This document shows, in pieces, positions 21,195-46,472 of a stretch of DNA of 64,000 bases (positions are counted from its first letter, which is position 1; the number at the start of each line of letters is the position of its first letter). A program made the position numbers and the translations under genes. Under the pieces are notes generated by a model, which saw nothing but the letters and a program-made list of their open reading frames with translations, was not told the DNA's origin and searched no databases. Origin of the DNA: Kiritimatiellia bacterium (GTDB lineage Bacteria; Verrucomicrobiota; Kiritimatiellia; PWTM01); contig JAOACR010000023.1 in the NCBI GenBank assembly GCA_026417735.1, forward strand, positions 1 to 64,000. Direction: 5' to 3'.

Positions 21195-22583
21195 TTATAA
21201 TTCCAACCTGCATTCACGGTAATATTGCTGCGCCGCCCGCACGACTCCCTCCTCAAACAGCGCCGGCTGTGTTGACCAACCCGAGTACCGCTGCCATACG
21301 ACCCATGCAGCTTCGAGCGCAAAAAACATCGAGTCGTTCGCGTTCTTAAAGTCGGTGCGGACATGATCGAGGGCCGCATCAATTTCCGACGGAGAACCGC
21401 GACGCCCTGCCCCAACGCTCTCGATCGCCCTTTGAAGATAGCCGTGCGTATGCCGCCAGTGCTCGAGCGCTTTCTGCAGCTGCGGGTCGGTCGCCCTCCT
21501 CGCCGCCAGAACACTCTCCAGAAGCCATTGAAGCCACTCGAACTCCCTCATCTTGATGCTGACATCCGGCGGGGCGACCAACACGCTCTCGCTGACGGTC
21601 GTGTAACGCTGGCCACCCACGCCGATGACCTCCCGCCGAACATCCTTGGAGCGCGTGATGGTTTGCGCCCGGCCCATAGCGCTCCGAATATCCCGCAAAA
21701 TGGGGTCGGTGATTGCGCAGGTCGCAAGCAGCACGTTGGCCAGGAACGCATCATTCGCCATCGAGCCGAGCCGGCTCATCGGCGTGGGGCGCAGCGGCGC
21801 GGAAAGCAGACGAATCACCTCGCTGCTGTGAACACCCCGAATCTTGGGCGGACTCCACGAAAGCTGCCATTGGCCGTTGCGCCCAAGAAGTTGCTGCGGC
21901 TGCCATTTGGAATGCACCGCATGAACCCGGCCGGCCGCGTCAAAAACCGGTGCACCTGAGCTGCCCGGCCCGGTCCCGCTCAGCGAAGACGCGGGAGCCT
22001 CGACGGTTACCACTGGATGGAACATCATCGGCGCGACCGAAGCTGGAATCTGACGCGCCGGCGACACCGCATACTGCAAAAGGCGGACTCCAAATTCTTC
22101 GACGATCGCCTGCACCTTCACGCTCGTTCGACTCCATCCCGCCCCGTCTGGAGCCCCGAGAAGAGTCAGATCCATGCCAACGGCCGTCTCGCGCGGATCG
22201 GCAACCGCAAGCCACTTGGTGTTCGAACAGCCGGTCGCCAGCACCGCAAGGTCGCCGCGCGGCCACACGTTGATCACATTCAACACCGCGTGCTGGCGTC
22301 CGTCACGGGTCCGAATCCACCCGTTGTATCCCCCTTCGATGACGTGGTACGCGGTCACAAACCAGCCGTTAGAGTTCACAAAGAACCCACTGCCCTGTTT
22401 GATCTCACGCCCTTCGGCATCACGGACCGCGACGATCGCACAAGCGTCGTCCGCCAACGCTGCTTGATCCTGCACACACGAATCCACTCGTACAGCTTCG
22501 TCGGCCGAGTGCGCGCGCCCGATCAGCCAAGAACAAACAAGAGGTACCGCGAACACTCGCGAGAACAGGTATTCATCCTTCAT
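21195..22583 (-). CDS. Exported trypsin-like (S1) serine protease
   Basis: 462 residues. ATG at 22583 follows GGAGGG and begins a signal peptide (MKDEYLFSRVFAVPLVCSWL...AHSA), so the protein acts outside the cytoplasm. The catalytic triad is visible: His in GWFVTAYHVIEGG (about 78), Asp in WPRGDLAVLATG (about 109) and Ser in LSGTGPGSSGAPVFDAAG (about 208). The remaining 220 residues form a helical C-terminal domain with no PDZ signature (VLLATCAITDPILRDIRS, WLLESVLAARRATDPQLQKALEHWRH), which I do not recognise. It is the last gene of the operon that contains the RecQ-like helicase and the vWA protein. It could be a stress protease unrelated to defence, or the effector of that system. Confidence 0.82.
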   Translation of the reverse strand: MKDEYLFSRVFAVPLVCSWLIGRAHSADEAVRVDSCVQDQAALADDACAIVAVRDAEGREIKQGSGFFVNSNGWFVTAYHVIEGGYNGWIRTRDGRQHAVLNVINVWPRGDLAVLATGCSNTKWLAVADPRETAVGMDLTLLGAPDGAGWSRTSVKVQAIVEEFGVRLLQYAVSPARQIPASVAPMMFHPVVTVEAPASSLSGTGPGSSGAPVFDAAGRVHAVHSKWQPQQLLGRNGQWQLSWSPPKIRGVHSSEVIRLLSAPLRPTPMSRLGSMANDAFLANVLLATCAITDPILRDIRSAMGRAQTITRSKDVRREVIGVGGQRYTTVSESVLVAPPDVSIKMREFEWLQWLLESVLAARRATDPQLQKALEHWRHTHGYLQRAIESVGAGRRGSPSEIDAALDHVRTDFKNANDSMFFALEAAWVVWQRYSGWSTQPALFEEGVVRAAQQYYRECRLEL

Positions 22584-22810
22584 TCTTTTTCCCTCCGAGC
22601 TGAATGGCACGGCGGCCAACTTACCGGCTGCACAAAGAGTTGAACGATCGGCGGCCACATTCACTCGTTGCGCCTACGGAAGAGTCTTCAAGATGTTTGC
22701 ACTTCCTCCTTTGTGTTCACGGGCAACACCGGTGTCACGCGTCGCGCCCCGGAGTCTCTCGTCGGAATGCGGTGCCGTCTTTTCCTACCCTCTGAATCGC
22801 AGCCTCGACT

Positions 22811-23158
22811 TAGGCTTCCGCCGCCGCTCCCTCCGCGATGTACGCCTCATCCTGAGCTTTTATCTCTGCCTTCTCCGCCGCCTTCTCAGCCAGATACGCC
22901 TCAAACTCGGCTTCCATCGCGGGGCTTCCGCAAGGTGCGTTTCAAGCTCGTCTCTTTGCGCCACCAGCCCCGCTTCGCGGGCATTCACCGCTTTGAATGC
23001 AGCCGCGCAGTCACCGCGCCGGCTGGCGCGGCGAGCCATGTTCCCCCGCGAGCTCCGATGCGGTTTCCCGGCTCTCGAGCGTTGGCCTCCGTCACGGCTT
23101 TGTTCGCTTCGTCATCCTGCTTTTTTACTGATTCCTGTTCCCCCTTCCTTCCGGACAT
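22811..23158 (-). pseudogene. Decayed small coiled-coil gene
   Basis: After ATG at 23158 the sequence reads MSGRKGEQESVKKQDDEANK, then KAVTEANARE, then needs changes of frame to stay coding: RETASELAGEHG, then DCAAAFKAVNAREAGLVAQRDELETHLAE in another frame, and finally MEAEFEAYLAEKAAEKAEIKAQDEAYIAEG to a stop at 22811. Together these give about 115 residues of charged coiled coil rich in Ala, Glu and Lys. At least two frameshifts break it. It lies directly after the membrane-anchored coiled-coil gene and before the protease gene, so it was probably the sixth member of that operon. Confidence 0.5.
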
Positions 23159-23175: not shown

Positions 23176-23694
23176 TCACTTCAACGCAGCGATCCAACTG
23201 AGCAAAGCTAGCAGCGTGGCCGCTCCGCTCACAATGATCGCAATCTTGACGCGCTGTCCAAGCTTATGAGCAAGCGCCGTGCCATGTTGTCGCAGATTTT
23301 CGATGCTGCTGCTCAGACCTTGAATACCGCTGTCGATCTGCTGTTGAAGTGCCTGAACCTCACCGGGAAGATTCGTCAACACCGCCAACGGCTCGATGAC
23401 ATTCCGCGTCTCGCTCATCGCCGCCGCATGGGTCTTCAACGTCTTCTGAATATTACTGGTCAGAACCGCTCGCTCTTCAGCAATCTTCGAAGCTAACTCG
23501 TTCAATCCTTGGACGGCCGCATGAAGGTGCTGGAGCAGTTGGTGGGTCCCCGCGACGATTTTTGCGCCCGTATCTACGACCTTCTCCGCCGTCTGTCGGC
23601 TGCCCTCTAGCAGCGCCGCGGCGGACTTCAGGCGGTTCAGCTCTTCAATCACCTGCGCGATGGTTTGTTCGGCTTGTTCAAAGTAGTCGGTCAT
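23176..23694 (-). CDS. Coiled-coil protein with C-terminal membrane anchor
   Basis: 172 residues. ATG at 23694 follows GACGGAGA by about eight bases. Residues 1-145 are almost wholly helical with heptad spacing (AEQTIAQVIEELNRLKSAAALLEGSR, LHAAVQGLNELASKIAEERAV, VQALQQQIDSGIQGLSSSIENL). Residues about 150-170 form a single transmembrane helix (VKIAIIVSGAATLLALLSWI) at the very end, so the coil faces the cytoplasm (tail anchor). It starts 15 bases after the helicase gene. A role as sensor or membrane docking partner for the helicase/vWA proteins is possible; there is no known family to name. Confidence 0.75.
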   Translation of the reverse strand: MTDYFEQAEQTIAQVIEELNRLKSAAALLEGSRQTAEKVVDTGAKIVAGTHQLLQHLHAAVQGLNELASKIAEERAVLTSNIQKTLKTHAAAMSETRNVIEPLAVLTNLPGEVQALQQQIDSGIQGLSSSIENLRQHGTALAHKLGQRVKIAIIVSGAATLLALLSWIAALK

Positions 23695-23708
23695 ATTGTG
23701 TTCTCCGT

Positions 23709-26700
23709 CTAATTTGTCCCCGCCGTTCGCCAGAATCCGCATGCCAGTACTGGCTTCAAAATCGCCGCGGCGAGCAGACCAAGCGCAAACTTACGGACCG
23801 GCCCCTGTGCACCGACGGGTGTTGCGAGCAAGAGGCCGGCAAGCCAGCGATCGCCGGTTGTTCGGAGCAGCCGCTCCGCCGTCGCAGTTGCGGCCTGTGG
23901 CCGGTGCTCAACAAGATGATTGAACACAAACATCCACGCCTTCGCCGCAGCTCTCCGGGAGATCTGTCCCTCCTGCTGCATGTGGCCGAATAGCAGCATT
24001 GCTTCTTCGAGGATCCCCTCGTCAGTCTCCGTTGGGCAGATGGCGCGCGCACAAACCGAGATCAATCGCAATGCAAGATTGTCCGGCTCCTCGTCTAGCA
24101 ACCGCCGCACCGTTCCAAGCATCCGCTTGATCTGATCAAGAGTCTGCGCGCTCTGCAACATCTCCGTCACCTCCCGCAAACCAATCTCCGCGAAGGGGCG
24201 TCGCAACCATTTCTTGAGCGGCTCGGTGAACTCCGACTCTTGCAAGTATGCGAGGATCGCCTCTCGGAATTCGGCGTCACTACGAAAATTGCGGCACAGC
24301 TCGCCCATCGTGCGCAGGGCCTGCTTCCGTCTCTCGACAATCTCATCATAAATGAAATCCACCAGCACCCGCGCGGCGGTTTCAATCGCCGCGGATAGCG
24401 GCCCACTTGGAACGTTCGCCAGCAACGTCTCCACGTGCTGCGGAAACTTGTATTTGCCAATGTACTGCGCCAGATGCTGGCGCACAGTTTCCACGCCAGC
24501 ATGTCGGACACTGACTTCGAAGATCTGCTGCGGCCAGTCCACCGTGTAATCCTCCACCGCGCCAAGCAGCACCAATCGGAAAATCGCCTTCTCGGTCGCG
24601 TCCCGGCTTCCCATCGCCCCAAACGGAACGCGAGCCAAGTTGATCGCCCCCACGGGTAGGCCCGCGACGGAAGCATGAAGGAATCTCCACATCTGAACGG
24701 CATTCGCTGTTTCTTGTTCACGTCCTTTGTAGGAATTAAGGAGCAGCCAGAGCTGGACCATGAGGTCGCCGCGGTAGTCCCAATCGACTGTTTCCAGCCG
24801 AAAATTGGCCTTCGTGTGATCGCGCTCGCTTAGAATCTGCACACCGGTTTCCCAGTTGTCGTCGCTGTACAGAACGATGCACCGCGCATATCCATGTTGT
24901 CCGTTGCGCCCGGCGCGGCCTGCTTCCTGATAGAACCCCTCCACCGACTGCGGCATTGCATAGTGGATCGTGTAGCGGATGTTTGGCTTGTCAATACCCA
25001 TACCGAACGACTTCGTCGCCACCAGCTCCTGAATCCGGTTGTGCTTGAACGCGTGCTGCACCGCGAGTTTGTGCCGGTTCCAGGTTGCGATGTCCCCGAC
25101 AAAGCCGCGGGGCATCTCGCCCGCAAAAATCGCTGTATGCCCGAGCCGTTGAGCCACCTCCTTGACGCCCAAAGGGCCGTTGACGTGCGGACAAAACACG
25201 ATGCCGCTGTTGGTCTGCCTCCCACGAAGCTCAAAAAAGGTCTCTGGGCTTTCTCCGAGTGTCTGGGGCAAAGCCCTCCGGACCTGGAGAAGTGCCTGCA
25301 ATTTGTCCCGCCGGCGAACCTTCTTCACCTCGAACACCAGCTCTTTCCGATCGAACGACCGGGGCACCACCACCGCCCGCTCGTCGGTGATCCCCAGTTC
25401 CGCCTGCACGTCGGTCAAGACCGCAAAGGACGCCGTGCCGGTCAGCCCCACGAGCGTCGGCGGCCGATTGTCTGGTCCGGCGCAAAACCGCTGCACGTTG
25501 AGCGGCATGTGCAGATAGGAAGGCCGGAAGTCGTGGCCCCACTCCGAAACGCAATGCGCCTCGTCAATAGTCACCAGCGAGACCGGACACCTCGTTACCG
25601 CCCTCTGGAGCTGAGCTCGGAAGTCCCGCATCTGCAGCCGCTCCGGCGCAACAAAGAGAAACATCAGACGTCCCTCTGCGAGATCGCTCAGGCTCCGCTC
25701 CCGCTCGACTTGATCGGTTTGACTCGAGATCGAACCAATCATGTCGATTGCAAAGCTTTGCAGATTCTCCAGCTGGTCGTTGATCAACGCGACCAACGGG
25801 TCCACCACCAGCGTCATTCCAGGGAGCAGCAGTCCACTGAACTGATAGGTCAACGATTTTCCACCGCCGGTGGGGAGCAGTACAACCGTGTGTTTCCGCT
25901 GCAACAGGCGGGATATCACACGCAGCTGGCCGTCCCAAAAATCTCGTTTTCGAAATAGCTGACGCAGGAAATACCGGAGTGCCGAGGTTTTCTTCGTGGT
26001 TACCTCATCGAGCGAGGGATTGTCGGACGTCGCTGCCGACTCAACATCCTCGAGCTCATATCGCAAGGGATCGGCAACCCGCAAGGCACGCGCCTCGCGG
26101 GACCCGACTGCCCGCCGCAGACGCGCTCTCTGGCCGGTTGGGGACAGTTGCGCAGCACGCTCGGTCTCGCTTGCCCAACCGGTCGCCAGCCGGAAACTGT
26201 GTGAAAGCACGAGGTCATAGGTTCCCGTCGGCGCGGGAACTTGGCGCAGCTTGATCGCATCGGGCAAACTCAGACTGAACATCGAACCGATCAGATCCAC
26301 CTCCAGGCTCGGCGGTGGCGGCGTAGACGGTGCCAGTTCGTGCAGATGCGACCACATCACCCACAACTGTCGCAACGCCTCAACCGCAGCAGGAACATCC
26401 TCCTCAATGAGCAGCACCCGCTGCGGCCGGCCGGGAACGATCAGCCCCTCCAGCAACATGGCGATCCAGCCCCGCAAACAACGATGCACCGCCTGGGGAA
26501 TCACAACCGAAAGATAGGCGGCCACATGCATCCCCGAACCAGCAGCGGCTTCGCTGATGGTCGGCCATTGCAGCTGCGGTTGCGCAGTCCATTCGCGCCG
26601 TCGTTCCGCCAACCACTCTGCCAAACCTGCGCGGATCGACTCCCGGGGGAGCTGGAACACGTTCCATCCCTCCCCCTTCAGCACGGCGTCAGCCGCACCG

Positions 26701-27371
26701 TCCTCCGGTGATGCGCGCCCCAAACGGATCGCCCACTTCACCTTGCCACGATGCACTGCAAGCTGTACCTGTTGTTGCCGCGCGACCGCAGTCTGCGGGC
26801 TCTGACGCCGCTCACCCACCAGATCGCCAACTTGAACATTGGTCCAGAGGTGCTCGGGGCCCGCCCCAACGTGATGCCGCAGAAGTTTAACCAAATGGGA
26901 CAGTGTCTCTTCGCAAGCACCGTCCCCGTCCCCTCCCTCCAACACCACCGCATGCGGTCCAGCCTCCGGAGCCGCGAGAGGCAGCTGGCTAAGCTCTGCG
27001 GCAGCATGAATAAGATGGCCCCAGTGTGCGGCGAAGGCCTTGCCAGTGATCCGCCGCTCAATTGTCAGGGGAGTTTCAGGGTCCGCGACCGTTAAAAGCT
27101 TACTCTTTGCGAGACTGACAAGTAGCCCGCTCTCAAACTCAAAGTCCACCAGCGTCGGATGCCCACGGATCACTACCTTGTCCAACACCGCCGCCAATGC
27201 AGTCACATCAGCATCTTGCCGACTCCCTGACGGCGCATCCGCCTCCAACGTCGCGTGACCGTGCTCTCGCAGAAACGCGTCCAACAGCTCCGCGAACTCG
27301 GTGTCATGCTCCAAGACTGCCGACCACGCGGACAGGCGCGCCGATGCGGTGTATCGGAGCACGCTCTTCAT
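23709..27371 (-). CDS. Large RecQ-like superfamily 2 DNA helicase
   Basis: 1220 residues, far longer than RecQ (about 610). Residues 1-470 are an unknown N-terminal region; within it, about 130-260 contain a segment that weakly recalls a restriction-endonuclease-like fold (VQLAVHRGKVKWAIRLGR, KGEGWNVFQLP) without the acidic residues. The helicase core runs from about 480 to 850: Walker A LLPTGGGKSLTYQ (about 497-506), motif Ia VVDPLVALINDQ, motif II with the RecQ aromatic loop IDEAHCVSEWGHDFRPSY (about 602), GLTGTAS, and motifs V-VI FGMGIDKPNIRYTIHYA and YQEAGRAGRNG (about 815). No four-Cys zinc module follows; instead there is a winged-helix-like segment (AIFRLVLLGAVEDYTVDW) and a helical tail. 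ATG overlaps the upstream stop (ATGA). A defence or repair role is inferred from the island. Confidence 0.88.
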   Translation of the reverse strand: MKSVLRYTASARLSAWSAVLEHDTEFAELLDAFLREHGHATLEADAPSGSRQDADVTALAAVLDKVVIRGHPTLVDFEFESGLLVSLAKSKLLTVADPETPLTIERRITGKAFAAHWGHLIHAAAELSQLPLAAPEAGPHAVVLEGGDGDGACEETLSHLVKLLRHHVGAGPEHLWTNVQVGDLVGERRQSPQTAVARQQQVQLAVHRGKVKWAIRLGRASPEDGAADAVLKGEGWNVFQLPRESIRAGLAEWLAERRREWTAQPQLQWPTISEAAAGSGMHVAAYLSVVIPQAVHRCLRGWIAMLLEGLIVPGRPQRVLLIEEDVPAAVEALRQLWVMWSHLHELAPSTPPPPSLEVDLIGSMFSLSLPDAIKLRQVPAPTGTYDLVLSHSFRLATGWASETERAAQLSPTGQRARLRRAVGSREARALRVADPLRYELEDVESAATSDNPSLDEVTTKKTSALRYFLRQLFRKRDFWDGQLRVISRLLQRKHTVVLLPTGGGKSLTYQFSGLLLPGMTLVVDPLVALINDQLENLQSFAIDMIGSISSQTDQVERERSLSDLAEGRLMFLFVAPERLQMRDFRAQLQRAVTRCPVSLVTIDEAHCVSEWGHDFRPSYLHMPLNVQRFCAGPDNRPPTLVGLTGTASFAVLTDVQAELGITDERAVVVPRSFDRKELVFEVKKVRRRDKLQALLQVRRALPQTLGESPETFFELRGRQTNSGIVFCPHVNGPLGVKEVAQRLGHTAIFAGEMPRGFVGDIATWNRHKLAVQHAFKHNRIQELVATKSFGMGIDKPNIRYTIHYAMPQSVEGFYQEAGRAGRNGQHGYARCIVLYSDDNWETGVQILSERDHTKANFRLETVDWDYRGDLMVQLWLLLNSYKGREQETANAVQMWRFLHASVAGLPVGAINLARVPFGAMGSRDATEKAIFRLVLLGAVEDYTVDWPQQIFEVSVRHAGVETVRQHLAQYIGKYKFPQHVETLLANVPSGPLSAAIETAARVLVDFIYDEIVERRKQALRTMGELCRNFRSDAEFREAILAYLQESEFTEPLKKWLRRPFAEIGLREVTEMLQSAQTLDQIKRMLGTVRRLLDEEPDNLALRLISVCARAICPTETDEGILEEAMLLFGHMQQEGQISRRAAAKAWMFVFNHLVEHRPQAATATAERLLRTTGDRWLAGLLLATPVGAQGPVRKFALGLLAAAILKPVLACGFWRTAGTN

Positions 27372-27775
27372 TTACCAGCTTCTGTCCCCGCCGGAAGTTC
27401 GTGCCTCAACAGCCGCTCGACCACCAGCCCCGTGAGCCACTCTTTGCACCGAAGACGAGGAAGCATCTGACCACCCCGCCGTGCCACCACAGGCTCGATG
27501 ACGAGCATCAGACTGTTGAGGTCGCCTGGCTTCAGCCCTCTCTGCTCCGCCTCGCGTGCGGCCTCATTCGCCGAGGTGGCGGACCAGCTCACTACGAGCT
27601 CCAACGGGTAATCTCCCACTGCAAGCGGCCCGGAGACCTCCAGAACCCAAGGCCGATATCGCCCGGCCGGAACACTGAGGGGCAAAAACACCTCGCTAAC
27701 TCTGAAACGCCCGGCCAGGATCAGTCGGCCGGAGCCCGCGAACAGAAGAACACAGGGATACGGGCCCAGGCTCAT
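27368..27775 (-). CDS. Single copy of an unrecognised domain shared with the 28.5-29.3 kb protein
   Basis: 135 residues, no known family. Its order of features matches the repeat unit of the protein at 28481-29308: an LAGRFRVSEV strand, a beta-rich stretch ending in LEVSGPLAVGDYPLELVVS, an acidic/Ala helix (ANEAAREAEQRGLKPGDLN), a hydrophobic strand (SLMLVIEPV), and an RCKEWLTGLVVERLL helix that parallels RCSRWFAGEMAKAFVDNL. It overlaps both the vWA gene and the helicase gene by four bases each, so all three are made together. No enzyme residues stand out; a binding or assembly domain is more likely. Confidence 0.65.
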   Translation of the reverse strand: MSLGPYPCVLLFAGSGRLILAGRFRVSEVFLPLSVPAGRYRPWVLEVSGPLAVGDYPLELVVSWSATSANEAAREAEQRGLKPGDLNSLMLVIEPVVARRGGQMLPRLRCKEWLTGLVVERLLRHELPAGTEAGK

Positions 27776-28421
27776 TGGCCAGCTGCTCCTCCGAAAGAAG
27801 GCAGGGCATTAACATCGAACTTTGTCTTGCGCCCAGACCGGTAGGCGGATGTATTTTCCGAAAACCAGTTCCACGTCTTCATGCTCCCCTGTGCGTCTTT
27901 CTTAAACAAGAAGAGCTTGCCCGCTTGGAATCCAACGGCCCCGGCGTCCTCGATCGCCTCAAGGTCCGCGCTCAGAAACACCAGCTGCCAGCCGTCTTTC
28001 GCCGACCGCGCCTGAATCATTGCGAGGATCTGTTCCTCGCGAAACTCGCGGCTGGCGTTTTCTTTTCCGTGAGTCACGACAACAAAGATCACCTTGGCTG
28101 GCCGATCCGACTCCGGTAGACCGAGCAGATTCTGCCGAAAATCTTGAATGTCTCGGCCAATCGCATCCAGCAGCGGTGTGTTCACGCGTGGAACGTCGGT
28201 GGCATTTGTCAGCTCCGGCATCTCGGTGATGGGCCAGAAACAGCGAATCACCTCATAGGGTCTTGGCTATCGAACCGGAACAGGGTAAGTTTCCCGGTGC
28301 CAGTCTCGGCCTTCTGACGATTCAGAAACGCATTGAACCCTTGGATCGTTTCCTCCCCGATGCCCCAAATTGAACCCGTACGATCCAGGATGGCCGTGAT
28401 GTGTGCGGAGTCCGCTCTCAT
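27772..28421 (-). pseudogene. von Willebrand factor A (vWA) protein, split by one frameshift
   Basis: ATG at 28421 (after a GGGGGG-rich site) reads HITAILDRTGSIWGIGEETIQ and then LTLFRFDSQD; the frame breaks at about 28258-28262 in a CCC run. One extra C would restore DPYEVIRCFWPITEMPEL and lead straight into the second open part, which has the MIDAS Thr in NTPLLDAIGRDI, the core strand PAKVIFVVVTHGKENAS and LVFLSADLEAIEDAGAVG. The joined protein would be about 216 residues, a single vWA domain of a widespread small family. DxSxS is here DRTGS (Thr for Ser), and the usual TDG of the third MIDAS loop is THG, so metal binding may be altered. Stop overlaps the next gene (ATGA). The frameshift may be real or a sequence error. 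Confidence 0.78.
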
Positions 28422-28480
28422 GGTCCCCCCTTCGATCGGGCTGGGCAGTCGCCGCCTGTTTTCCTCCCTTGTCAACCTCC

Positions 28481-29308
28481 TCACCATTCGCCTCTGCTTG
28501 CCTTTCCCGACTCAGCCTCCTCCTTGTTGCGATTGTCGAGAACAGCCTTCAAGTTGTCCACAAAAGCTTTTGCCATTTCTCCCGCAAACCACCGTGAGCA
28601 TCGGAGGCGGTTGGACTGAGCACACATCTCCAGCGCGATCAAATTCTTGCCACCTAACACAACCCCCTTGGCGGCGCAGAATCGGATCGCCTCATCCACC
28701 GGCTCCGGGTTGCATTCAACGAAGAGCCGCACTTGGTCGCCGACGAGCACTGGAAACTCCAGTGGCGCTGCCCACCTTGGACACGTATAGCCAGTCGGTT
28801 GCACTTTCCCGACGCGAGCATAGCCGGCGACGACCAAACTCTCGCCAGAGAGCGCAATCACATCTAGAGCTGGGAGCCGCTTCGCTATATTGGCAGCCCC
28901 AGCAGCGAGCGAGTCATTCACATCGCACTCCTCTCCTGCTCTCATTTCACTGCCGTTGCATGGTCCGCTTTCGGATTCCCCGCCGAGCAGCACAGCTTGC
29001 ATATTTTGGAGGAACGCGCTCGCCATCGCATTCACGTACCAACGGTCAAAATATAGACGGTTGAACGAAGCACTAAGTTCGAGCACAAAGAAGTTGTCTG
29101 ACCCTGGAACGAATCCCAGCGACGCGGCAAGGAGGGCCGAGTCCGAATCGCTGAAAAGTTTCAACTGGAGAGGCTCTCCGGTAAAGGCAGGAAAATCGAT
29201 AGCCATCGCCTCCCCTGCACTCGAGCTCCCACATGAACGAAGAGCACTCGCAGAGATTCGCCCAGCCAGCGTCACACAGCGATCGGAGAGCGTAACCGCT
29301 TGGAGCAT
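28481..29308 (-). CDS. Unrecognised protein with two tandem copies of a novel domain
   Basis: 275 residues of no family known to me. It contains an internal duplication: copy one has FPAFTGEPLQLKLFSDSDSA, then NFFVLELSASFNRLYFDRWY and MASAFLQNMQAVL; copy two has FPVLVGDQVRLFVECNPEPV, then NLIALEMCAQSNRLRCSRWF and MAKAFVDNLKAVL. Each copy begins with an xxLAGRxx or VVAGYARV strand. The N-R-L-x3-RW pair is the most conserved element. No signal peptide or membrane helix. Its ATG is one base after the stop of the NE0113-family CRISPR gene, so it is transcribed with the type III locus, and its end lies close to the vWA gene. A similar single domain is made by 27368-27775. Confidence 0.7.
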   Translation of the reverse strand: MLQAVTLSDRCVTLAGRISASALRSCGSSSAGEAMAIDFPAFTGEPLQLKLFSDSDSALLAASLGFVPGSDNFFVLELSASFNRLYFDRWYVNAMASAFLQNMQAVLLGGESESGPCNGSEMRAGEECDVNDSLAAGAANIAKRLPALDVIALSGESLVVAGYARVGKVQPTGYTCPRWAAPLEFPVLVGDQVRLFVECNPEPVDEAIRFCAAKGVVLGGKNLIALEMCAQSNRLRCSRWFAGEMAKAFVDNLKAVLDNRNKEEAESGKASRGEW

Positions 29309-29309: not shown

Positions 29310-30362
29310 TCAGTGGTTCCCCCGCGCGATGACCAGCTTGAACGGCGGCAACACCAGCGCCTCGGTACGCTGTCCCGGCCCCCAGTTGATCGAGTGCTGA
29401 GCGAGGACGCGCCGGATATGATGGAGCTCGCGTCGGATGTCTTGACTCATGTCCAGGTTGGGAAACGCTGCGCTCCAGCCGTGGCGGTCTAGGAAGCTTC
29501 GAAATTCTTCCTCAGGGACATTGATCGCCCGAGGCCGAACCCCCCTCTCGGCGAGATCCACGCAAAAGCGGAGAACCGCATAGGCACGGGGCCGCAGGGT
29601 GATCCACGGGGAGACGTCCACCCGGAAACGGCGCCCCATGTCGTCCATCAGAAGCTTGACCGGCTCACGGCGATCTTGCACCAGCGTTTGCGCGTACCGG
29701 CGCACAAGCATCGAGAAACTGCCGGGCATGCTGCCGAGATCCTGAAAGCGGTTTCGCAACGGCACAAACGGAATATCGGCCAGCACGATTTGGCGTGCCT
29801 CTTGTGACGATGCGGGGAAGTAGAATCGCGGTTCTCTCCGGCGTTCCAAATTCTCCGACACCAATACATGAGTGACGCGGTCCGTCTCACGTCCAATCAG
29901 CGTCATCGCCGCGTAAATCAGCGCACCCATCGTCTTGCGGCCGCCTGCGATCGAAGCGACGACATGCACGTCCGGGTTCTCCACGAACGCGCGGAGATGC
30001 TCGAGAATGAAGTCCGCCGCAGCGGTGTTGTCCTCGGGCGTTCGTAGATCCTCCAGTTCGTGTCCCCGACGGGTGAACACTCGCAGGTGATCGCCCGTGT
30101 CACCGAACACGAACTCGTCGTCGCCGGCCTTCAGTGTTCGCCGCAGCCGCTCCCACACGCCAGATTCGAGCAGTTCGCGCCGGATGGACGCCGCGCTCTG
30201 CGTGGTGCAGAACGCGATCACCCGGCGTACTCGCGTCGCAGGCCGCTCGTGCGCCAGCGCCCACACCGTCTCGGTGAGAATCGCCGGCGACATGCCCGTG
30301 ACCGCCACCAGCACGGTCTCCCGCTCGTCCGCCCGTGTCGTTGCCATGGATCGCCTCATCAT
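29310..30362 (-). CDS. CRISPR-associated CARF protein, Cas_NE0113 / ring-nuclease family
   Basis: 350 residues of the Cas_NE0113 family (PF09623, TIGR02584). ATG at 30362 follows GGAG by about eight bases. Signature VLVAVTGMSPAILTETVWAL opens the CARF Rossmann fold (about residues 15-35), VIAFCTTQSAASIRREL follows, and SIAGGRKTMGALIYAAMTLIG is the ligand-binding loop (about 140-160). The C-terminal half is helical with a winged-helix-like segment (LRPRAYAVLRFCVDLAERG). No convincing HEPN R-x4-6-H in a suitable context. In this family the CARF domain binds cyclic oligoadenylate and some members degrade it, so it probably limits the signal made by Cmr2. It lies downstream of three CARF nucleases. 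Confidence 0.88.
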   Translation of the reverse strand: MMRRSMATTRADERETVLVAVTGMSPAILTETVWALAHERPATRVRRVIAFCTTQSAASIRRELLESGVWERLRRTLKAGDDEFVFGDTGDHLRVFTRRGHELEDLRTPEDNTAAADFILEHLRAFVENPDVHVVASIAGGRKTMGALIYAAMTLIGRETDRVTHVLVSENLERRREPRFYFPASSQEARQIVLADIPFVPLRNRFQDLGSMPGSFSMLVRRYAQTLVQDRREPVKLLMDDMGRRFRVDVSPWITLRPRAYAVLRFCVDLAERGVRPRAINVPEEEFRSFLDRHGWSAAFPNLDMSQDIRRELHHIRRVLAQHSINWGPGQRTEALVLPPFKLVIARGNH

Positions 30363-30477
30363 ATCTTTCTCCGCGAAGATAGTTTCACCCGCCAATGCGC
30401 GCAGTCTAAGCGTACATCGCCGATGCAGCAATGAAACAAGACGTTGCGGGACGTCGCGCGGGCGTGGCCTCGCGCCT

Positions 30478-31635
30478 TTACAACTTCAACAACTTTTCAA
30501 GCTGCTCCCACAGTTCTGCTTTGCGGACGAGAGTCACGCCATGGCTCTGGGCAAACTGCCCAAGATCCTCCGTTGGCTGCGCCCGCCGCACACACACCAC
30601 CCGCCCCATCTTCCCTCCGATCTCCGCGGCATGTAGAAGGTCCTCCTTCAGCACCTTTTGCTGACTGCTCTCCAGCTCCCCTGCAAGGCGGCCAAGGTCT
30701 CTTCGCCACGCCTCCTCGTACCCTTCTCGGGGCCCCCCATGACGACGGAGATTCTCAAGCAAAACATTCGATGGCTCGCGATCCTTGCAATCCACCAGCC
30801 ACAGCCGCCCTCGATGAACAAACACGGTGTCAAACTCCGCCACGCTCGAGGGATCACGCTCGCCAATCTTGCCCACCGGTCGAATCTGAATGCCCTTCCT
30901 GGCCTTCAACACCCCGAGACTCAGGACTACAAAGGCAACGGCGTACTCCAAATGTTCACCCTGTTGTCGGTGACCAGGCCGTCGTCCTCGGATCGAGAGC
31001 CACTGGCTCAGATCCTCCTCACCCCTGGCAGTGGATCCGGTTCCGATCGCCTGCGAATATAACTTCCTTCGTTCCCCGAGCGGCAGCGATCGGCATCGTT
31101 TGGAGAGCTCCAGCAGTTCACCTTCGGCGGCCAGCTCGCTTTCGACGAGCTGACAACGAACCAGCTCCAGTGGGTCGTAGCCGTCAGCCAGTGTGGGGTC
31201 CAACCGCTCGGCGCGGGACACCATCCGGCCGCCCCGCAGCTCGATACGGTACAGCTCGTGGTTCTGCTCGATGTACAGCGCCGGCACCCCACGCCGCGTC
31301 GCCCAGTCTAAGAGTGCAACCGCCATCAGCTTATTGCCACCGGTAATGTGAACCTCGACCTCGCCGCAGTCACCGATGATCTGTTCGAGCCGTTCCTGCA
31401 ATGCGGCGACGTCATTGTGAGGCACGCAAGCCCGCTCGATCTGATCCGATTGAAGAGCTCCGACAGCCTGGAAAAATGCGGCCAGCTGTTCCGCCGGCCG
31501 TTGGGACTCCACCACGTGATCGCTGTGGAGGATTAGCAGCCGCGACGGCCGCCGATTCAATACGGCCAGGATCTGCGGCCATACCTGCCGGCTGGCCAGA
31601 GTGACTAGGGTTTGCTCCTGCGTTCGTAGTCCCAT
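30478..31635 (-). CDS. Card1/Can2-like CARF nuclease (intact)
   Basis: 385 residues. The N-terminal CARF domain has TLVTLASRQVWPQILAVLN, LLILHSDHVVESQRP and the binding-loop motif VEVHITGGNKLMAVALLDWA (GGNK for GGTK). The C-terminal third is a PD-(D/E)XK nuclease of the DUF1887/Card1 type: the helix Glu in GEHLEYAVAFVVLSLG, then VAEFDTVFVHRGRLWLVDCKDRE with the D...D-x-K core (Asp, Asp, Lys). The last 60 residues are a helical/Rossmann cap (KMGRVVCVRRAQPTEDLG). Members cut DNA and/or RNA when cyclic tetra-adenylate binds. ATG at 31635 follows GGGTGG, and the gene sits 21 bases after the dsRNA-binding nuclease. Nuclease residues appear complete, so it should be active. Confidence 0.87.
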   Translation of the reverse strand: MGLRTQEQTLVTLASRQVWPQILAVLNRRPSRLLILHSDHVVESQRPAEQLAAFFQAVGALQSDQIERACVPHNDVAALQERLEQIIGDCGEVEVHITGGNKLMAVALLDWATRRGVPALYIEQNHELYRIELRGGRMVSRAERLDPTLADGYDPLELVRCQLVESELAAEGELLELSKRCRSLPLGERRKLYSQAIGTGSTARGEEDLSQWLSIRGRRPGHRQQGEHLEYAVAFVVLSLGVLKARKGIQIRPVGKIGERDPSSVAEFDTVFVHRGRLWLVDCKDREPSNVLLENLRRHGGPREGYEEAWRRDLGRLAGELESSQQKVLKEDLLHAAEIGGKMGRVVCVRRAQPTEDLGQFAQSHGVTLVRKAELWEQLEKLLKL

Positions 31636-31656
31636 ATTTGCCACCCTGTCGAAGCA

Positions 31657-33450
31657 CTAAACCGTCTTGGAAACACCCTCATCAAGCCGCTGCAAAGCAT
31701 CCTCCGCGGCTGCCCGTTTCGCAGGCTGCTTTCTCTTTCCCTTCCCTTCACCCCTCACTTTTCCACCAATGGTCACCTTTGCGGTAAACAGCGGCTCATG
31801 CGCCGGCCCCTCCTGCTCCACCATGTAAGACGGCTCACCCAGTTGGAGTGCTTTACATGCGGCATCGAGTCTGCCGATGGCATCCCTTTGCTGTAGAGCG
31901 CCCTCCGAGAAAGAGGAAAAACACTCTGCTCCGTGTTTCGTCTTTCCTTGGCCATCAAGTGAGGGGCCCGAGCTTGGTGTCGCCGATCTACTGCAACTCC
32001 TCGTTCGCCTCAGAGCGTCTTCCGCCGCCGCTCTTTTCGCGTCCGCCTTTCGCTTTCCTCTTCCCTCGCCCCACTGCCGTCCTGAGACAGTAACCCGAGC
32101 AATGAATTGCGGCTCATGCTCGGGTCCTGTCTTATTCACTTCATACGTGGGGGCCGCAAGCCCCTTCTCGCGACACCACCGCGCAAAAGCTTCGATCTCA
32201 GAATTCTGAGTGCCGCTGTCTCGTTTCGGAACGGGCCCAACCTTGCGCACAAGCCGTTCCATGCGGCCGTCGCGTAGCGGCACGTCAGCGGGCAGCGCGC
32301 GGCCCATAATGTGTGGCTCTTCGCTCACCCATTCCCGCAAACGTTCCTCAAGCATCAGAATCTCCGGACCACTGACCATCCGCACCCCTAAGTGAGAGGC
32401 CATCGCCTGCGCGGCCGGCGACTGCATTGCTGCAGTGACCAAAATCGGCTGACCCAATGGCCCAAACAAAAACTGCGTGTAGCACCGGAGGGCAATCATC
32501 GCTCGCGGAAATTCCGGCTTTCCCGACTTACACTCAACCACGAACATTTGATTGCCCCGTCGAGCTAAAATATCGTATTCACGCTGATACGACAGTGAGG
32601 AATCTCCGGATCCGTTGAGCTGGAATTTCACCTCCACCTGCGCGAATACCTCATCAAACAAACTGCTGTTTGTCATTACGCTCCAACAGTATTCTTCGAA
32701 CCACATGCCATTAAGGTAGCTTTTGATCGCCTCTGCCGCATCAGGATTACCACTTTTTCTCTCCAGGCCAAGCGTCCGTGCCACCTTTTTCCAAAAGCCA
32801 GCACCACAGGCAGCGACGTTGTGGCCGTTGGCGCTGTATGCGGCCAACTCTTTTGCCAGGTCTAGCCGCGCCAGCACCTGCTGCCCTGCTGGATTGTCCT
32901 CCGAGAGATACCCCTCCCGCAAAACTCCGCCGCGCAGCCGTAGCCAGATGTGAAGCGGTAGTGCTCGCTCAACCTCACGAACGTAAATGTGGGCCGGCGC
33001 ACCGCGGTCAAACTCGCATGTGGTCAGCGTGCCACCCGAACGACTCATCCAAGCCGCTCGGGCGTAGTACCCCCACGGAGGTGCAGTCGCTGCGACCAAG
33101 TGATACAGACATTCATGCGCGGCCGGACCTTCGCAGAGCAAAACCACCTCTTGGATCACCTGCCAATCCGCAATACGTCGGCAGGTCCACTCGCCGCATT
33201 TGTCCAAGTGGGTATATACATGAATTGCAACGTCTTCACACCCTAACCCCTTTAAGACCTCACGGACCGCTCGAAGAAGTAGCTCAGCCGAAGGCCGGCC
33301 CAACAGCACCACATACCTCGGAGATTCGGCCAACGCAGCCTGAACTACAGTTTGCGGATGTTGGTCGACCTCGGCCACCAGTACCTTCGCTTCTCGATTA
33401 GGGAAACTGCTAATGTGGGGCAGAGCCGCTGATGCGGTCGGTGTATCCAT
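31657..33450 (-). CDS. CARF-like / PD-(D/E)XK nuclease fused to two dsRNA-binding domains
   Basis: 597 residues in four parts. (1) Residues about 1-170: Rossmann-like domain in the CARF position (AKVLVAEVDQHPQTVVQAAL, YVVLLGRPSAELLLRAV), but the GGTK ligand loop is replaced by VVLLCEGPAAHECLYHLVA. (2) About 225-390: Card1/DUF1887-type nuclease, with the helix Glu in LNGMWFEEYCWSVM and the core QREYDILARRGNQMFVVECKSG (Asp, Glu, Lys). (3) About 418-482: dsRNA-binding domain (YEVNKTGPEHEPQFIARVTV, GEGRGKRKADAKRAAAEDAL). (4) About 525-592: a second copy (YMVEQEGPAHEPLFTAKVTI, GEGKGKRKQPAKRAAAEDAL). Both keep the GPxHxxxF and GxGxxKxxAKxxAA signatures. ATG at 33450 is chosen over 33543 because it sits after GGGCGGG and fits the decayed Nudix end. 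No frameshift. The architecture is new to me. Confidence 0.88.
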   Translation of the reverse strand: MDTPTASAALPHISSFPNREAKVLVAEVDQHPQTVVQAALAESPRYVVLLGRPSAELLLRAVREVLKGLGCEDVAIHVYTHLDKCGEWTCRRIADWQVIQEVVLLCEGPAAHECLYHLVAATAPPWGYYARAAWMSRSGGTLTTCEFDRGAPAHIYVREVERALPLHIWLRLRGGVLREGYLSEDNPAGQQVLARLDLAKELAAYSANGHNVAACGAGFWKKVARTLGLERKSGNPDAAEAIKSYLNGMWFEEYCWSVMTNSSLFDEVFAQVEVKFQLNGSGDSSLSYQREYDILARRGNQMFVVECKSGKPEFPRAMIALRCYTQFLFGPLGQPILVTAAMQSPAAQAMASHLGVRMVSGPEILMLEERLREWVSEEPHIMGRALPADVPLRDGRMERLVRKVGPVPKRDSGTQNSEIEAFARWCREKGLAAPTYEVNKTGPEHEPQFIARVTVSGRQWGEGRGKRKADAKRAAAEDALRRTRSCSRSATPSSGPSLDGQGKTKHGAECFSSFSEGALQQRDAIGRLDAACKALQLGEPSYMVEQEGPAHEPLFTAKVTIGGKVRGEGKGKRKQPAKRAAAEDALQRLDEGVSKTV

Positions 33451-33926
33451 GTTTCTGCACCCGCCCTGTGTCGCCTTCAAATTGTATCGGGCAGGCCACT
33501 TGTAGCGCAAGCCTCGACCACAGCTCAAGCTTCTCGCCCACATTACTCACCGAGGACCCCGCGGAGATTCAGCGGAGGTCGCAAAGTTCCGCCTCGGTCA
33601 GGCGCGGGCGGCCCCGCACACGACAACAACAGGCCGGGCCGACGTGGACTCGCCCCACCTCAGACCGTCGCTCGTGAATTACGCCCAGAAATTGAGGGGC
33701 CGTGTGGCCATCGAGAGAAAGCTCCTCGCGCAGTTCTCGAGTCAATGCCCGACGCAGCGTGCGTACCCAATCCAGACGCCGATCGCCCCCGCAGACCATG
33801 TCGCCAGGGTTGATGTGGCCACCAACACCCATGGAATAGAGATTTCTCAGGCGCGCTTCTGAACCCGAGCGGCAATAGATCGCTAATTCCCCAGAGTCTT
33901 TCTAGATTATCACATGTGGAATCCAT
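33410..33926 (-). pseudogene. Broken Nudix hydrolase
   Basis: The reading begins at ATG 33926 (MDSTCDNLERLW), which directly follows the Cad1 stop. A one-base change in the G4 run near 33890 is needed to continue ELAIYCRSGSEARLRNLYSMGVGGHINPGDM, then the Nudix box ALTRELREELSLDG (REx2EE kept) and IHERRSEVGRVHVGP. An in-frame TGA at 33569-33571 interrupts LTEAELCDLR; beyond it the same frame continues GEKLELWSRLALQ, as at the C-terminus of this Nudix group, to a TAG at 33410 inside the next gene. Thus one frameshift plus one nonsense codon. A Nudix next to a CARF-adenosine deaminase could hydrolyse inosine nucleotides; this is inference. Length would be about 172 residues. Confidence 0.75.
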
Positions 33927-35937
33927 TAAAGGTATTCTTCATCCGTTTCCGCCCGCTCTCGCAGTAGCCAGAACGGCGTGACGGCGGTCATCTGGCGCGC
34001 AAAGCCTGCCTCGTTGAGCACCGCCAGCACTTCGAGCTCGCGCCAAGCCGCAGCGAGCTCAGCAGCCCGACACGCGAGAACCTGCTCCCTGTCATTGGAT
34101 CCCAGAATCTGCTCACATCGCTGCAACAAGGAACTACGTTCGTCGAACGAAACAAACGCCATCTGAAGAGCGTTTCTCGCCAGCCACAAAAGGTCAATCC
34201 GCCGGAGAGAGCAACAGCCGTGCTGCGATGAGAAGGTTGTCGCTTAAACCCGCGCCGGAAATGCCAATGTTGTCGGTGTTCACAGCTCCGCAATCCCGTT
34301 TTCGAGATACTCCTTTAGCGGATAGCGAACAGTCCCTTCGCGAAAACCGGGCACCGCATATTGACGGATTTGCAGGTTTCCGTAGGGACACATCTCAACG
34401 CCGATCTCACGATCTGCAACCGAGCGCATGAGAGCAGGAAACTCATGGAGATGTAGGGCGTGCCCCAGCAGACGCGCGTTCAACTCAAACACTGCACGCC
34501 AAATCGCCTCCGATTCGTCTTTTTCTCCCGCATGCGTGGTGACCGCCACACCACAACGATGTGTTGCTACAAACTCTTCCCGAAAGTAATGAGCCCGAGC
34601 GCTTGGATTTTTCATAACCTGCAAGGTCAACGCCAACCACACGACAGGCGTCAGCGGCACCCCACTGTTCGGCCGCTGTTACGGCCAGGGCCATATGGCG
34701 CGCCATCGCCGCACGGAAGTCACCTCCTTGCGGCGGGTCGCGATAATCAGCAGATTCGCATGGCAGAACCGCAGAGGGTCGGCCTGACAAGCGCGCTCCA
34801 TCTCCTCTTGGAACGTATCGCGGATGTCCACAAGTACCGCCCATGCCGACCGCCCCTCCCCAGCGTAATTGGCACGAGAACAGCATATCTCCACATACAC
34901 TGCTCTCTCCTCCCATCAAGTGGCGATACAACAGTCTGCAGTGAGCCTTCAGGCAGCCGAGATCATAAAGGAGTGATGTGCCTGTGTGTTCTCCGAGCGA
35001 AAGGTACTGGTCCAATGAGACGCTCTCTCTCGGCACCGGCATCCCTTGGGTTTCATTATGGGTTTCACCGGAGGAAGGCGGCCGGGGTGCTGCGCCGCCC
35101 GGCGAACTGTCTCCAGCAGCGCCCCCTCCGTTGCAAATCCTCTCAGGTGACTGTGCAGCTCCACCTTTGGAAGCTGGCGAATCCAACTCTCCTTCCTCGA
35201 AGGGTCGACAGTCTTGTTCAGCCAGTCCAGCTGCGCCTCCGGCCACGTCACCAGTACGTGAAACGGAAGATCGCTGAGTCGTGACCAAGCCCCGGCCACG
35301 TTGTGACTGCGCTTGACAATCGCTCGCGAACGGCAGCGAAACGAATCATCGGGCGCCGTCAACACCACCACACCCTCCTCAGAAGTCTCATCGAACAACG
35401 GAAACTCCGCTGAGCTGGTGCGTCGAAATTGGGGCCAGCCGCTCTCCCGACCAAGCCGAATCGATTGCAACCGACCTTCCTCTCGCGCCCGGTAAATCTC
35501 CTCGATCGTCTTCGGCTCGTCGGGAGAACCTTTTACGCCGTTTTTCGAGGGCTCCACCAACACATGAAAAACCTCGGCCGCTCCGAGCACGGCCGCCGCC
35601 TTATGCATCGCCGCGGACATTGTCTTATACCGGCCAGTGAGGCAGACATAACGCTGATCGGCAGGCAAACCAGTACGAAGTACCCATCGATACAGCACCT
35701 CTTCGAAGATGAAATGGTCCTCTCCCGTCTTCAGCTCGGAAAAATCTTTGGTTCTACTGATCGTGAGGTGGACATGAGGCGCTTCTCGCCGAAAAAATCC
35801 CAGATCAGGTCCACCCGTCCCCTCCCGCTTGTGAGCACATGGATCGAGCGAAAAGCGACACCGGGCAGCCAAAAGGCCTCGGGCACGACGGCCGCGGACA
35901 TGCCGCAGTTAATTCGAAGGTCCGCATCTTGCGACAT
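33926..35937 (-). pseudogene. CARF-adenosine deaminase (Cad1-like), about seven frameshifts
   Basis: A type III effector in which a CARF sensor controls an adenosine deaminase that turns ATP into ITP. ATG at 35937 follows GGGGGGAGGGACCG and reads MSQDADLRINCGMSAAVV. CARF: VHLTISRTKDFSELKTG and YVCLTGRYKTMSAAMHKA. Deaminase: LPKVELHSHLRG (metal HxH), VYVEICCSRANYAG, CRVVGVDLAGYE, GVAVTTHAGEKDESEAIW (HAGE), LLGHALHLHEF, MCPYGNLQIRQYA, VNTDNIGISGAGLSDNLL (NTD) and LLWLARNALQMAFVSF. To read through, frame must change near 35795 (A6), 35050, 34905, 34725, 34610 (T5), 34284 and 34198. All catalytic motifs survive and no nonsense codon is needed inside any frame. Full length would be about 670 residues. 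Either a recent pseudogene or a patch of indel errors. Confidence 0.85.
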
Positions 35938-35999
35938 CGGTCCCTCCCCCCGCCGGCCTCAGATCGCGAGGGGGAGCGGTCCTGTGCATGTTTTTGGGG

Positions 36000-37141
36000 C
36001 TAGATCAGCGGCCGTACCGCCCGAATTTGTTGGGTAACCATCTCGTGCAGCCGATACAGATCCTCTCGCCACACAAGCGCTCCCCCAAGCGAACGGGCAC
36101 GTGCTTCCTGGCTGCTGATGTTCTCCCCAGCGGTATGACGCCACTGATGGATGTAAAGAACCCACCCGCCAACGGCCCGGCCTACCTTGCGCACGACGGC
36201 AGACTGCTCTTCCGCCAAGTCGGCGACGCGCTCGTCGTTCCTGATTCCACTCTTGCACTCGACCACCATCAGCCGGGCATCGCGCTCCACCACCACATCG
36301 AGCTCCATCAGCTCTCCCCGCTGACCCGGATTCAGCTGCACGTGCCACGCTACCTGGTCGAAGCCGCCGCGCCTCAGCTGCGACCAAACAAACACCTCGA
36401 TATAGCCGGACCGGAAAAACTCGGCGTTCGACTCCTGAGGCGAGCGCAGGTAAAAGAGGCGCGTAAACCATTCTGAGGGCTCGACCACATAACCCGCACT
36501 GCCGACGGGGCGAATCAGGCGAGCATCCTGAAGAATCTGTAGCGTCGACTCGGACACATTGTCGAGACGATACGGAATCGATGTTGCGGTGGCCAGCCGC
36601 GAAAGATCGTCAAGCTCACGCCCCCCCATTCATGATTGCTTCGGCAGCGCGGACCAGCTCCGGAGCGGGGGTGTGACGCTGAACAAACTCACTCGAGCGC
36701 TCCACTCCTTCCACCAAGTGGCCGGCAGCCAGCAAATGAGTCAGTGCATCAACGCCAAGGGCCCGCGGGGAAAATCGGATGTCGGCCCGTCAACGGTTCG
36801 CCCGCTCCCTCCACGATGACTTCCAGCCCTTGAGTGTTCACGTACAAGCTTCGCCATCCTTGCTCCTCTGCAACCCGCCGGGCCGCGCAGCTCATCATTT
36901 TCGTGCCACCGGTCCAGTTCACGCACACTTCGCCGCCGGCCTCGGCTGTAATGCTTCGGATCAGCGAGGCACAGTGCCGCCCATCGAAGGGTTCCACTTC
37001 CCGCGCCGGCTCAATGACTGAACGGCAAGTTGCCGCTGAGAGCGCCCGCCGCAACGGTTCAACCTGCGCACGCGACTGGTCGGTAACAATCGACACCGCA
37101 CGGTCGGGTTTGTCCAACAAAATGCCGATCACGTTCGGCAT
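36000..37141 (-). pseudogene. Second Card1/Can2-like CARF nuclease, two frameshifts
   Basis: ATG at 37141 (after GGTGAGG) opens a CARF domain (MPNVIGILLDKPDRAVSIVT, GEVCVNWTGGTKMMSCAARR with a perfect GGTK). The frame then breaks at about 36745-36785, continues as ALGVDALTHLLAAGHLVEGVE and APELVRAAEAIMNG, and breaks again at a C7/G7 run (36621-36627) before RELDDLSRLATATSIPYRL. The last part has the nuclease domain: SGYIEVFVWSQLRRGGFDQV and MELDVVVERDARLMVVECKSG with D...E-x-K. Repaired length is about 380 residues, the normal size of Card1. It lies 53 bases after cmr1 and 62 bases before cad1. Nuclease motifs remain, so decay is recent or apparent only. Confidence 0.82.
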
Positions 37142-37194
37142 CACCTCACCACTCATCAGGCAAATTTGTGTCCTGGTTGCCATACAGAACTTGT

Positions 37195-38397
37195 TTACCG
37201 AAAGTCGCTAAGTTTTGGATCCTGTTTCATCTTTTCATACAGGTCGAGCCGCACGCGCCGCGTTTCGCTGTGCAGCTGCACCTGGTTGTTCACTCGCCTC
37301 TGGTGGCTCAGATACACCGGCCGCTCCACCGGCCACTTGTGCGCTTCTACAAAGATGACCAGAGCGTGCCAGCGCCCCCCCGTATCTTGGTAGGGCCGAA
37401 GCAGCACTGGCGACGCAAAGCGCCCCTGCCCTCCGGGCTCCGGCCCCCAAAAAACAGTTGCGGCCTTTCCCCGTAAAGGTCCATCCTCTCCTCCCAGACT
37501 CGAGAAGTATTGTACGATCGGCAACCCGAGTGCAGGCCTGAACGTTTCTCCCCGCTGCCCATAGGGCGCTTCTCGGTCGGGATTGGGTGCCCCCGTCCCT
37601 TGGACATCGAGCCCCTCATTATGGTCACGCCGCGCCCATCTGAATCCGCATTTTCCACGGTTTTCCTGCTTTTGCTCGTCTGGCACAGGCACCCATCTCT
37701 GAGCTTGCCTGTTCCATCGCCGGTTCATTTGCCCGTGATGACGCCAGCTCCGATACCAGTTCAGGAGCTTTTCAGCCGCCTGCTGCCAGTCCGCGTACTG
37801 ACCAGCTATCTCTCGTATGACGATGCTCCCCGGATTCGCAAAATGAGCAAGCTCCTCCGAAAGGACAACCTGCGGTTGGAGAAGCCGAACCGCACCCCAA
37901 CCCCGCCGCTGACGGAACCCCAGTCCCCCGAGATTGGCCCAAACAGCGGCCAACGCGCGGATTGCTGGCCAATTCTCGCTTCCCCCCCGCCAAATCAACT
38001 GCAGGGAAAATGCTCGGTTGGCCTCGATCATGCCGCGCCTCGCGTCATCGTCCTGTGTCGGTCTCAACGGAAACAATGCGTATCCGAGGGGACTCCCCAC
38101 GCCCGCATTCAGGTCTTCAGCATTTACCTGCCGGGTGCTGTCCACTATCCAATTCAGCCGAAGACTCAGTCGGGACGCGCGACCACGGTCGCCGGCGGCG
38201 TTCCCAAAGACGTATTCCTCTTGTTCTCGAACGCTCATGCCCTTTTGATGGAGAGCCTGAAACCCACCCAATGTGCGGAGCCACCAACGAAGCTGGCCCC
38301 GGATCGATGGCACACGAAGCTCAGCTCGCTTCTTGGGATCCGCGCCCCCGCAGAAACACGGCGTGATCAACTCCAGCTGATACGTCTCGGTCTTCAT
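37195..38397 (-). CDS. cmr1: Type III-B RAMP protein Cmr1 (copy 1)
   Basis: 400 residues. The Cmr1 signature is at the N-terminus: YQLELITPCFCGGADPKKRAEL and RVPSIRGQLRWWLRTLGGF. Further features are EYVFGNAAGDRGRASRLSLRLN and a Gly-rich NLGGLGFRQRRGWGAVRLLQP, the RAMP loop. Cmr1 caps the 3'-proximal end of the crRNA-bound filament and helps recognise target RNA. The start overlaps the stop of the second Cmr1-like gene (ATGA). It is longer than that copy and keeps an extra C-terminal block (PALGLPIVQYFSSLG, GRFASPVLLRPYQDTGGRWHALVIF). Both are ordered as parts of one operon with cmr6. Confidence 0.88.
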   Translation of the reverse strand: MKTETYQLELITPCFCGGADPKKRAELRVPSIRGQLRWWLRTLGGFQALHQKGMSVREQEEYVFGNAAGDRGRASRLSLRLNWIVDSTRQVNAEDLNAGVGSPLGYALFPLRPTQDDDARRGMIEANRAFSLQLIWRGGSENWPAIRALAAVWANLGGLGFRQRRGWGAVRLLQPQVVLSEELAHFANPGSIVIREIAGQYADWQQAAEKLLNWYRSWRHHGQMNRRWNRQAQRWVPVPDEQKQENRGKCGFRWARRDHNEGLDVQGTGAPNPDREAPYGQRGETFRPALGLPIVQYFSSLGGEDGPLRGKAATVFWGPEPGGQGRFASPVLLRPYQDTGGRWHALVIFVEAHKWPVERPVYLSHQRRVNNQVQLHSETRRVRLDLYEKMKQDPKLSDFR

Positions 38398-40507: not shown

Positions 40508-40529
40508 TTTTCTTTCTTCTGGTCCGGGT

Positions 40530-40940: not shown

Positions 40941-40953
40941 CGTCATGACCTCC

Positions 40954-41847: not shown

Positions 41848-41924
41848 CGCTCGCTTCTCCTTCCTGATTGCTGGCTACCCTCAACTGCCTTGACGCCCCC
41901 ACTCTAGCCGGGTTCCACCCCACT

Positions 41925-46303: not shown

Positions 46304-46435
46304 CCGCACCTCCTCGTGAAATCCCAGCGCCACGCATGCGGCGGCGTTACGCTGCGCCCAAAGCTGATGCCCAAACCTTGTCCTCCCAAACGCATCGCGT
46401 CCAGAGTAGACCTCTCGGGCTTACCTCACAAGATC

Positions 46436-46457
46436 AGAGACGTCGCAGAGACGTCGC
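46436..46457. repeat. Perfect 11-base tandem repeat upstream of cmr2
   Basis: AGAGACGTCGC occurs twice without a gap or mismatch in the short gap between the TIGR02710 gene and cmr2. Each copy has the palindrome GACGTC at its centre. The region must carry the cmr promoter or its leader, so an operator is conceivable, but two copies of a short motif may be chance. Confidence 0.5.
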
Positions 46458-46472
46458 TCGGTTTGCTGCCCC

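Follow-up and report, generated by a model that had tools for sequence, protein, structure and literature searches.

Within the effector tail of one type III-B CRISPR locus, two genes encoding proteins of 275 and 135 residues carry three homologous copies of one domain, as sequence comparison shows. The domain appears to be an orphan, previously unnamed and new as a sequence family. In our leading explanation, to which we assign a probability of about one in three, the proteins would act together with the RecQ-family helicase encoded beside them, as OB-like subunits for nucleic-acid binding or assembly within a RecQ-vWA module.

We compared the two halves of the 275-residue protein and the 135-residue protein by Smith-Waterman alignment against 2000 shuffles and also used BLASTP. 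The N-terminal half (copy 1) and the C-terminal half (copy 2) are 33% identical, with an alignment score of 143 (z 25; BLASTP E 1e-16), which bears out the earlier suggestion that this protein is a tandem duplication. The 135-residue protein, previously proposed as a third copy, qualifies as such through copy 2 (score 79, z 10, E 3e-7). Its match to the N-terminal half is marginal (score 37, z 2.6), as 43 of the 2000 shuffles scored equally well. The three copies form one family, into which the 135-residue protein ties through the C-terminal half. In a MAFFT alignment of copies 1 to 3, whose identities range from 25 to 33%, 17 columns are identical in all three, among them G74, G78, N81, R93-L94, and W99 (numbering of copy 2). 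The domain, previously put at about 125 residues, spans about 115-125. By codon usage, the 275- and 135-residue genes are each coding in their own frame, the best of the six.

The window, by which we mean the entire 64,000-nucleotide stretch that was analyzed, lies on contig C23 of genome G000 (3.09 Mb) and contains a type III-B (Cmr) CRISPR effector complex on the minus strand, with Cmr genes spanning 37195-46333. Both ORFs were confirmed at the coordinates in Table 1, on the same strand. The 275-residue gene starts 1 nt after the stop codon of the upstream Cas_NE0113 CARF gene. The start of the 135-residue gene overlaps the vWA stop and its own stop overlaps the RecQ start, each within an ATGA. 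With the 1-nt gap to the CARF gene and the ATGA overlaps downstream, the two genes are co-directional and closely packed with the cmr and CARF genes in the effector tail of the locus. The first-pass annotation described the copies as flanking the vWA gene; they do lie on both sides of it, but the 135-residue gene also overlaps the start of RecQ and the 275-residue gene adjoins a CARF gene.

Table 1. Features of the locus, with positions in the window
Feature	Position	Strand	Evidence
CARF-HEPN Csm6-type gene, preceding the effector complex	46473-47783	-	PF09670, E 3e-18
Cas10/Cmr2	43331-46333	-	
RAMP genes	37195-40564	-	
Card1-type gene divided over two ORFs (CARF part 36749-37183, endonuclease part 36000-36629)	36000-37183	-	
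CARF-adenosine deaminase, broken in two pieces	34280-35872	-	PADLOC CARF_ADA, E 1e-43 and 5e-36
Card1-like endonuclease (PF09002) with two double-stranded-RNA-binding motifs	31657-33543	-	PF00035, E 1e-28
Card1-like CARF protein	30478-31644	-	
CARF protein, Cas_NE0113/Csm6 ring-nuclease family, directly upstream of the 275-residue gene	29310-30431	-	TIGR02584, E 1e-44; PADLOC CARF5
275-residue protein, two tandem domain copies	28481-29308	-	ORF; internal duplication z 25, E 1e-16; coding in own frame
Domain copy 1, N-terminal half of the 275-residue protein	28961-29308	-	33% identical to copy 2; hmmsearch domain 1
Domain copy 2, C-terminal half of the 275-residue protein	28484-28885	-	AlphaFold2 model mce0a1ea5ebfc, OB-like topology, pLDDT 62
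vWA protein gene, flanked by the copies and broken by a one-base frameshift near 28255	27772-28421	-	Both pieces match phrog_7371 collinearly
Domain copy 3, 135-residue protein	27368-27775	-	31% identical to copy 2, z 10, E 3e-7; model m5733af0f76b0, pLDDT 56
RecQ-family helicase, 1220 aa	23709-27371	-	TIGR00614, above cut-off
188-residue coiled-coil protein with C-terminal hydrophobic (tail-anchor-like) segment	23176-23742	-	
Trypsin-like protease gene, downstream	21195-22664	-	PF13365, E 1e-16

Other features of the locus deserve mention. At least five CARF-type effector genes, some of them broken, lie in this one type III-B locus (29310-47783, minus strand); the co-occurrence of three effectors was called rare in a survey (PMC11229360). 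The fusion of a Card1-like endonuclease to double-stranded-RNA-binding motifs (31657-33543) is an unusual combination in bacteria. The breaks in the Card1, vWA, and CARF-adenosine deaminase genes suggest either assembly indels or a decaying locus.

Searches for relatives of the domain were negative. The proteins matched nothing in Pfam, NCBIfam, PADLOC, or PHROGs, and PDB sequences yielded one chance match at E 0.49. Plasmids, phages, and two scans of viral contigs gave no convincing relative, and no trusted relative emerged from about 1,430 genome searches (with overlap) covering host relatives, the host phylum and class, Planctomycetota, Chloroflexota, and genomes carrying RecQ relatives. 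Weak matches in five genomes (G076, G145, G292, G458, and G815) and to a gene at 22256-22843 of locus L009 were rejected as noise because of in-frame stops, a membrane-protein frame, or partial low scores. Across the entire source genome, a profile built from the three copies picks up these three positions and no others. The clear homology among the copies and the lack of matches in the four family collections and in PDB sequences uphold the view that this is a new domain present three times. No CARF, SAVED, or catalytic domain was recognized in it with Pfam, NCBIfam, PADLOC, or PDB sequences. The Pfam SSB profile PF00436 matched neither protein, and hhalign found nothing between the domain and three SSBs (Prob 0.4) or between the domain and vWA; the source genome encodes two ordinary SSBs elsewhere.

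For fold prediction, copy 2 was modeled with AlphaFold2 using the other two copies as the alignment, which thus held only three sequences. The resulting model is of low confidence (pLDDT 62, pTM 0.49; the five models range from 39 to 62). Its elements (E9-13, E16-25, E38-43, E52-56, H63-72, E80-88, E93-100, and H103-129) follow the predicted order of an OB-fold with a split first strand, plus a long C-terminal helix. This order, b1-b2-b3-a-b4-b5, appears in the copy 2 model at pLDDT 62 and, as a list of elements, in copy 3 at pLDDT 56. Foldseek against the PDB returned nothing at E <= 0.001 for copy 2 (best E 0.15); the list contains many OB-folds, including RMI1/RMI2, lysyl-tRNA synthetase, eIF5A, PrgE, and mitochondrial SSB. 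In a second structure comparison with the PDB most rows were also OB-folds. The top row was PrgE (89 residues, 3.8 A), with a Z of 5.5, below the 7-8 typical of this tool for models lacking a clear match. It was followed by a CST subunit (Z 5.1 over 103 residues), a phage ligase OB domain (4.9), LEF-3 (4.7), and CusF (4.2), then by RPA14/32 (Z 3.8 over 100 residues, including the C-terminal helix), Rim1 (3.6), and RecG (3.5). OB-type proteins (DnaE, DNA ligase, eIF5A, and tRNA_anti-like) recurred in a comparison with a viral library. OB is, however, a common fold.

The copy 3 model has a pLDDT of 56, with most of its first half below 50, and is too weak for a verdict on fold. It gave no OB matches in the structure comparison, the best being ERH (Z 4.6). 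Agreement in fold between copies 2 and 3 is therefore partial: the order of elements is the same, but only copy 2 is OB-like, and both models are of low confidence. In the three-copy alignment, one Gly of the first strand and another before the fourth are invariant, positions that reportedly match the OB signature described by Murzin in 1993. From the low-confidence model of copy 2 we infer a small OB-like beta-barrel that ends in a long C-terminal helix. An OB-fold is our leading hypothesis for the domain, and we place its chances just short of even.

We also examined the genes that follow copy 3. Plasmid proteins of Rhodothermus marinus match the RecQ protein along its full length at 45% identity, and proteins in contigs from Planctomycetota, Chloroflexota, Elusimicrobia, Marinimicrobia, and Kapabacteria/Chlorobiota are 37-50% identical to it. 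When contigs were scanned for the RecQ N-terminal extension, automatic patterns found nothing and a hand-made motif recovered 13 loci, eight of which held true RecQ relatives. The extension is DUF559 nuclease-like in relatives, with DUF559 matches in L008 and L023; that of the window RecQ has no DUF559 match in Pfam. A small coiled-coil gene directly follows RecQ in most relatives whose contigs extend far enough. The arrangement of a RecQ with a DUF559-like N-terminal extension, then a small and often tail-anchored coiled-coil protein, recurs in the window (23176-27371) and in L008, L017, L020, L021, and L023; RecQ and the coiled-coil protein thus form a two-gene module common to several phyla. 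None of the RecQ relatives in other phyla is accompanied by the domain, which is therefore not a constant partner of RecQ.

Some of these loci had further features. L008 has a repeated peptide frame (VVIPFSSGQVFG) at 12770-13708, immediately upstream of its Rhodothermus RecQ gene, that suggests a CRISPR array; about 4.5 kb past RecQ there is a TIGR02710 CARF gene. In L020, a trypsin-like gene precedes the RecQ relative, as one also lies near RecQ in the window. In L018, a Chlorobiota contig, RecQ is preceded by a lipoprotein-like gene that Pfam does not recognize but that has a DxSxS motif, a weak hint of a link to vWA.

The vWA gene between the copies offers a competing explanation, in which the domain serves solely as a vWA-binding or multimerising partner and RecQ is just the next gene. 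Copies lie directly on both sides of vWA, and the start of copy 3 falls within the vWA stop codon. However, copy 3 is coupled just as tightly to RecQ, and six relatives of the vWA protein, encoded on plasmids among unrelated genes, have no copy of the domain within 5 kb. The vWA protein itself is split between frames, one encoding residues 1-57 (28251-28421) and another the remainder (27772-28251). Alignment with the six relatives, all of which have DxSGS and TDG (6/6), revealed a degenerate MIDAS, with DRTGS (DxTGS) for DxSGS and with THG for TDG, the second change removing the MIDAS Asp; the motif set of a functional MIDAS (DxSxS, T, and the D of TDG) is incomplete in the window vWA. The lack of the domain beside vWA relatives, the degenerate and frameshifted vWA, and the equal coupling of copy 3 to RecQ leave the vWA-binding role proposed by the first-pass annotation with no specific support. 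Its alternative, a multimerising partner, likewise found none but is conceivable, as the long C-terminal helix of the copy 2 model is of a kind seen in RPA/Stn1-type OB subunits. We consider a dedicated partner of either kind unlikely.

Two other explanations concern the locus as a whole. The domain proteins could be an orphan accessory of the CARF/cyclic-oligoadenylate pathway (an effector, regulator, or ring-nuclease partner) that belongs with the CARF gene directly upstream rather than with vWA or RecQ. The 1-nt spacing between the Cas_NE0113 CARF stop and the 275-residue gene, and the several further CARF-type effector genes in the locus, are consistent with this role, but the domain contains no recognized CARF, SAVED, or catalytic domain, and copy 3 lies beyond the vWA gene. 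We regard such an accessory as doubtful. It is also conceivable, and in our view improbable, that the copies are duplicated remnants in a decaying island that lack a present function. The vWA, CARF-adenosine deaminase, and one Card1 gene are frameshifted in the same locus, and no relatives of the domain were found; however, the frameshifts could be assembly errors, and none of the three copies has lost its open frame or its coding-like codon usage. Because they remain open and coding-like at only 25-33% identity, long selection is probable.

For OB-like subunits acting with RecQ, the evidence consists of the homology of the copies, the element order of the copy 2 model, the OB rows in structure comparisons, the Gly positions, the matching order in copy 3, and translational coupling to RecQ. 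Set against these are the pLDDT values of 62 and 56, the Foldseek result, the Z of 5.5, the lack of OB matches for copy 3, the negative profile comparison with SSBs, and the RecQ relatives that lack the domain. Eukaryotic RPA and RMI1/RMI2 work with RecQ-family helicases, which makes a pairing of the domain with RecQ plausible by analogy, not by membership. Judging from gene order, both proteins would act with the helicase as nucleic-acid-binding or assembly subunits, for example by coating or guiding a single strand unwound by RecQ during type III immunity. The C-terminal helices could pack the three barrels together, with vWA serving as the protein-contact part and the coiled-coil protein as the membrane-contact part. 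A bolder proposal, which we think has a low probability, is that the type III CRISPR locus recruited an RPA/RMI-like three-OB single-strand-binding module together with RecQ, vWA, and a membrane-anchored coiled coil, giving cyclic-oligoadenylate immunity an effector branch that unwinds DNA and brings its own single-strand-binding proteins.

If the OB reading is true, type III CRISPR effector islands would be linked to a helicase with dedicated single-strand-binding subunits, a combination of which we found no report. If it is wrong, an orphan domain family with three copies in one defence operon would still be a candidate new effector or adaptor. The RecQ and coiled-coil pair, common to several phyla, is the firmer general lead.

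The locus resembles several known systems in part. Like the MoxR-vWA ternary conflict systems (with VMAP, iSTAND, FtsH, and beta-propeller components; PMC7159879), it combines vWA with further subunits in a conflict locus that has a trypsin-like protease nearby. Unlike those systems, its vWA protein is of the small stand-alone phrog_7371 type with a degenerate MIDAS, and no MoxR AAA+ ATPase was found among the main ORFs scanned from 21 to 47.8 kb. Like type III CRISPR ancillary effector genes (PMC11229360), the domain genes lie on the same strand as, and are tightly packed with, Cmr, Csm6/Csx1, Card1/Can2, and CARF-adenosine deaminase genes; they differ in encoding no sensor (CARF or SAVED) and no known effector domain. 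That survey does not mention vWA, helicase, or trypsin, and a check of terms in a report on nuclease-protease pairs (PMC12799240) did not find vWA, RecQ, or coiled coil. No sequence similarity was found between the domain and RPA, CST, RMI, or PrgE proteins, its model is of low confidence, and it is not a PF00436 SSB. In its predicted order of strands and helices and its C-terminal helix, it nonetheless resembles OB single-strand-binding subunits such as RPA14/RPA32, Stn1/Ten1, RMI1/RMI2, and the plasmid SSB PrgE, and the locus shares with RPA/CST/RMI-type subunits the predicted presence of several OB domains together and, by gene position, a likely association with a RecQ-class helicase.
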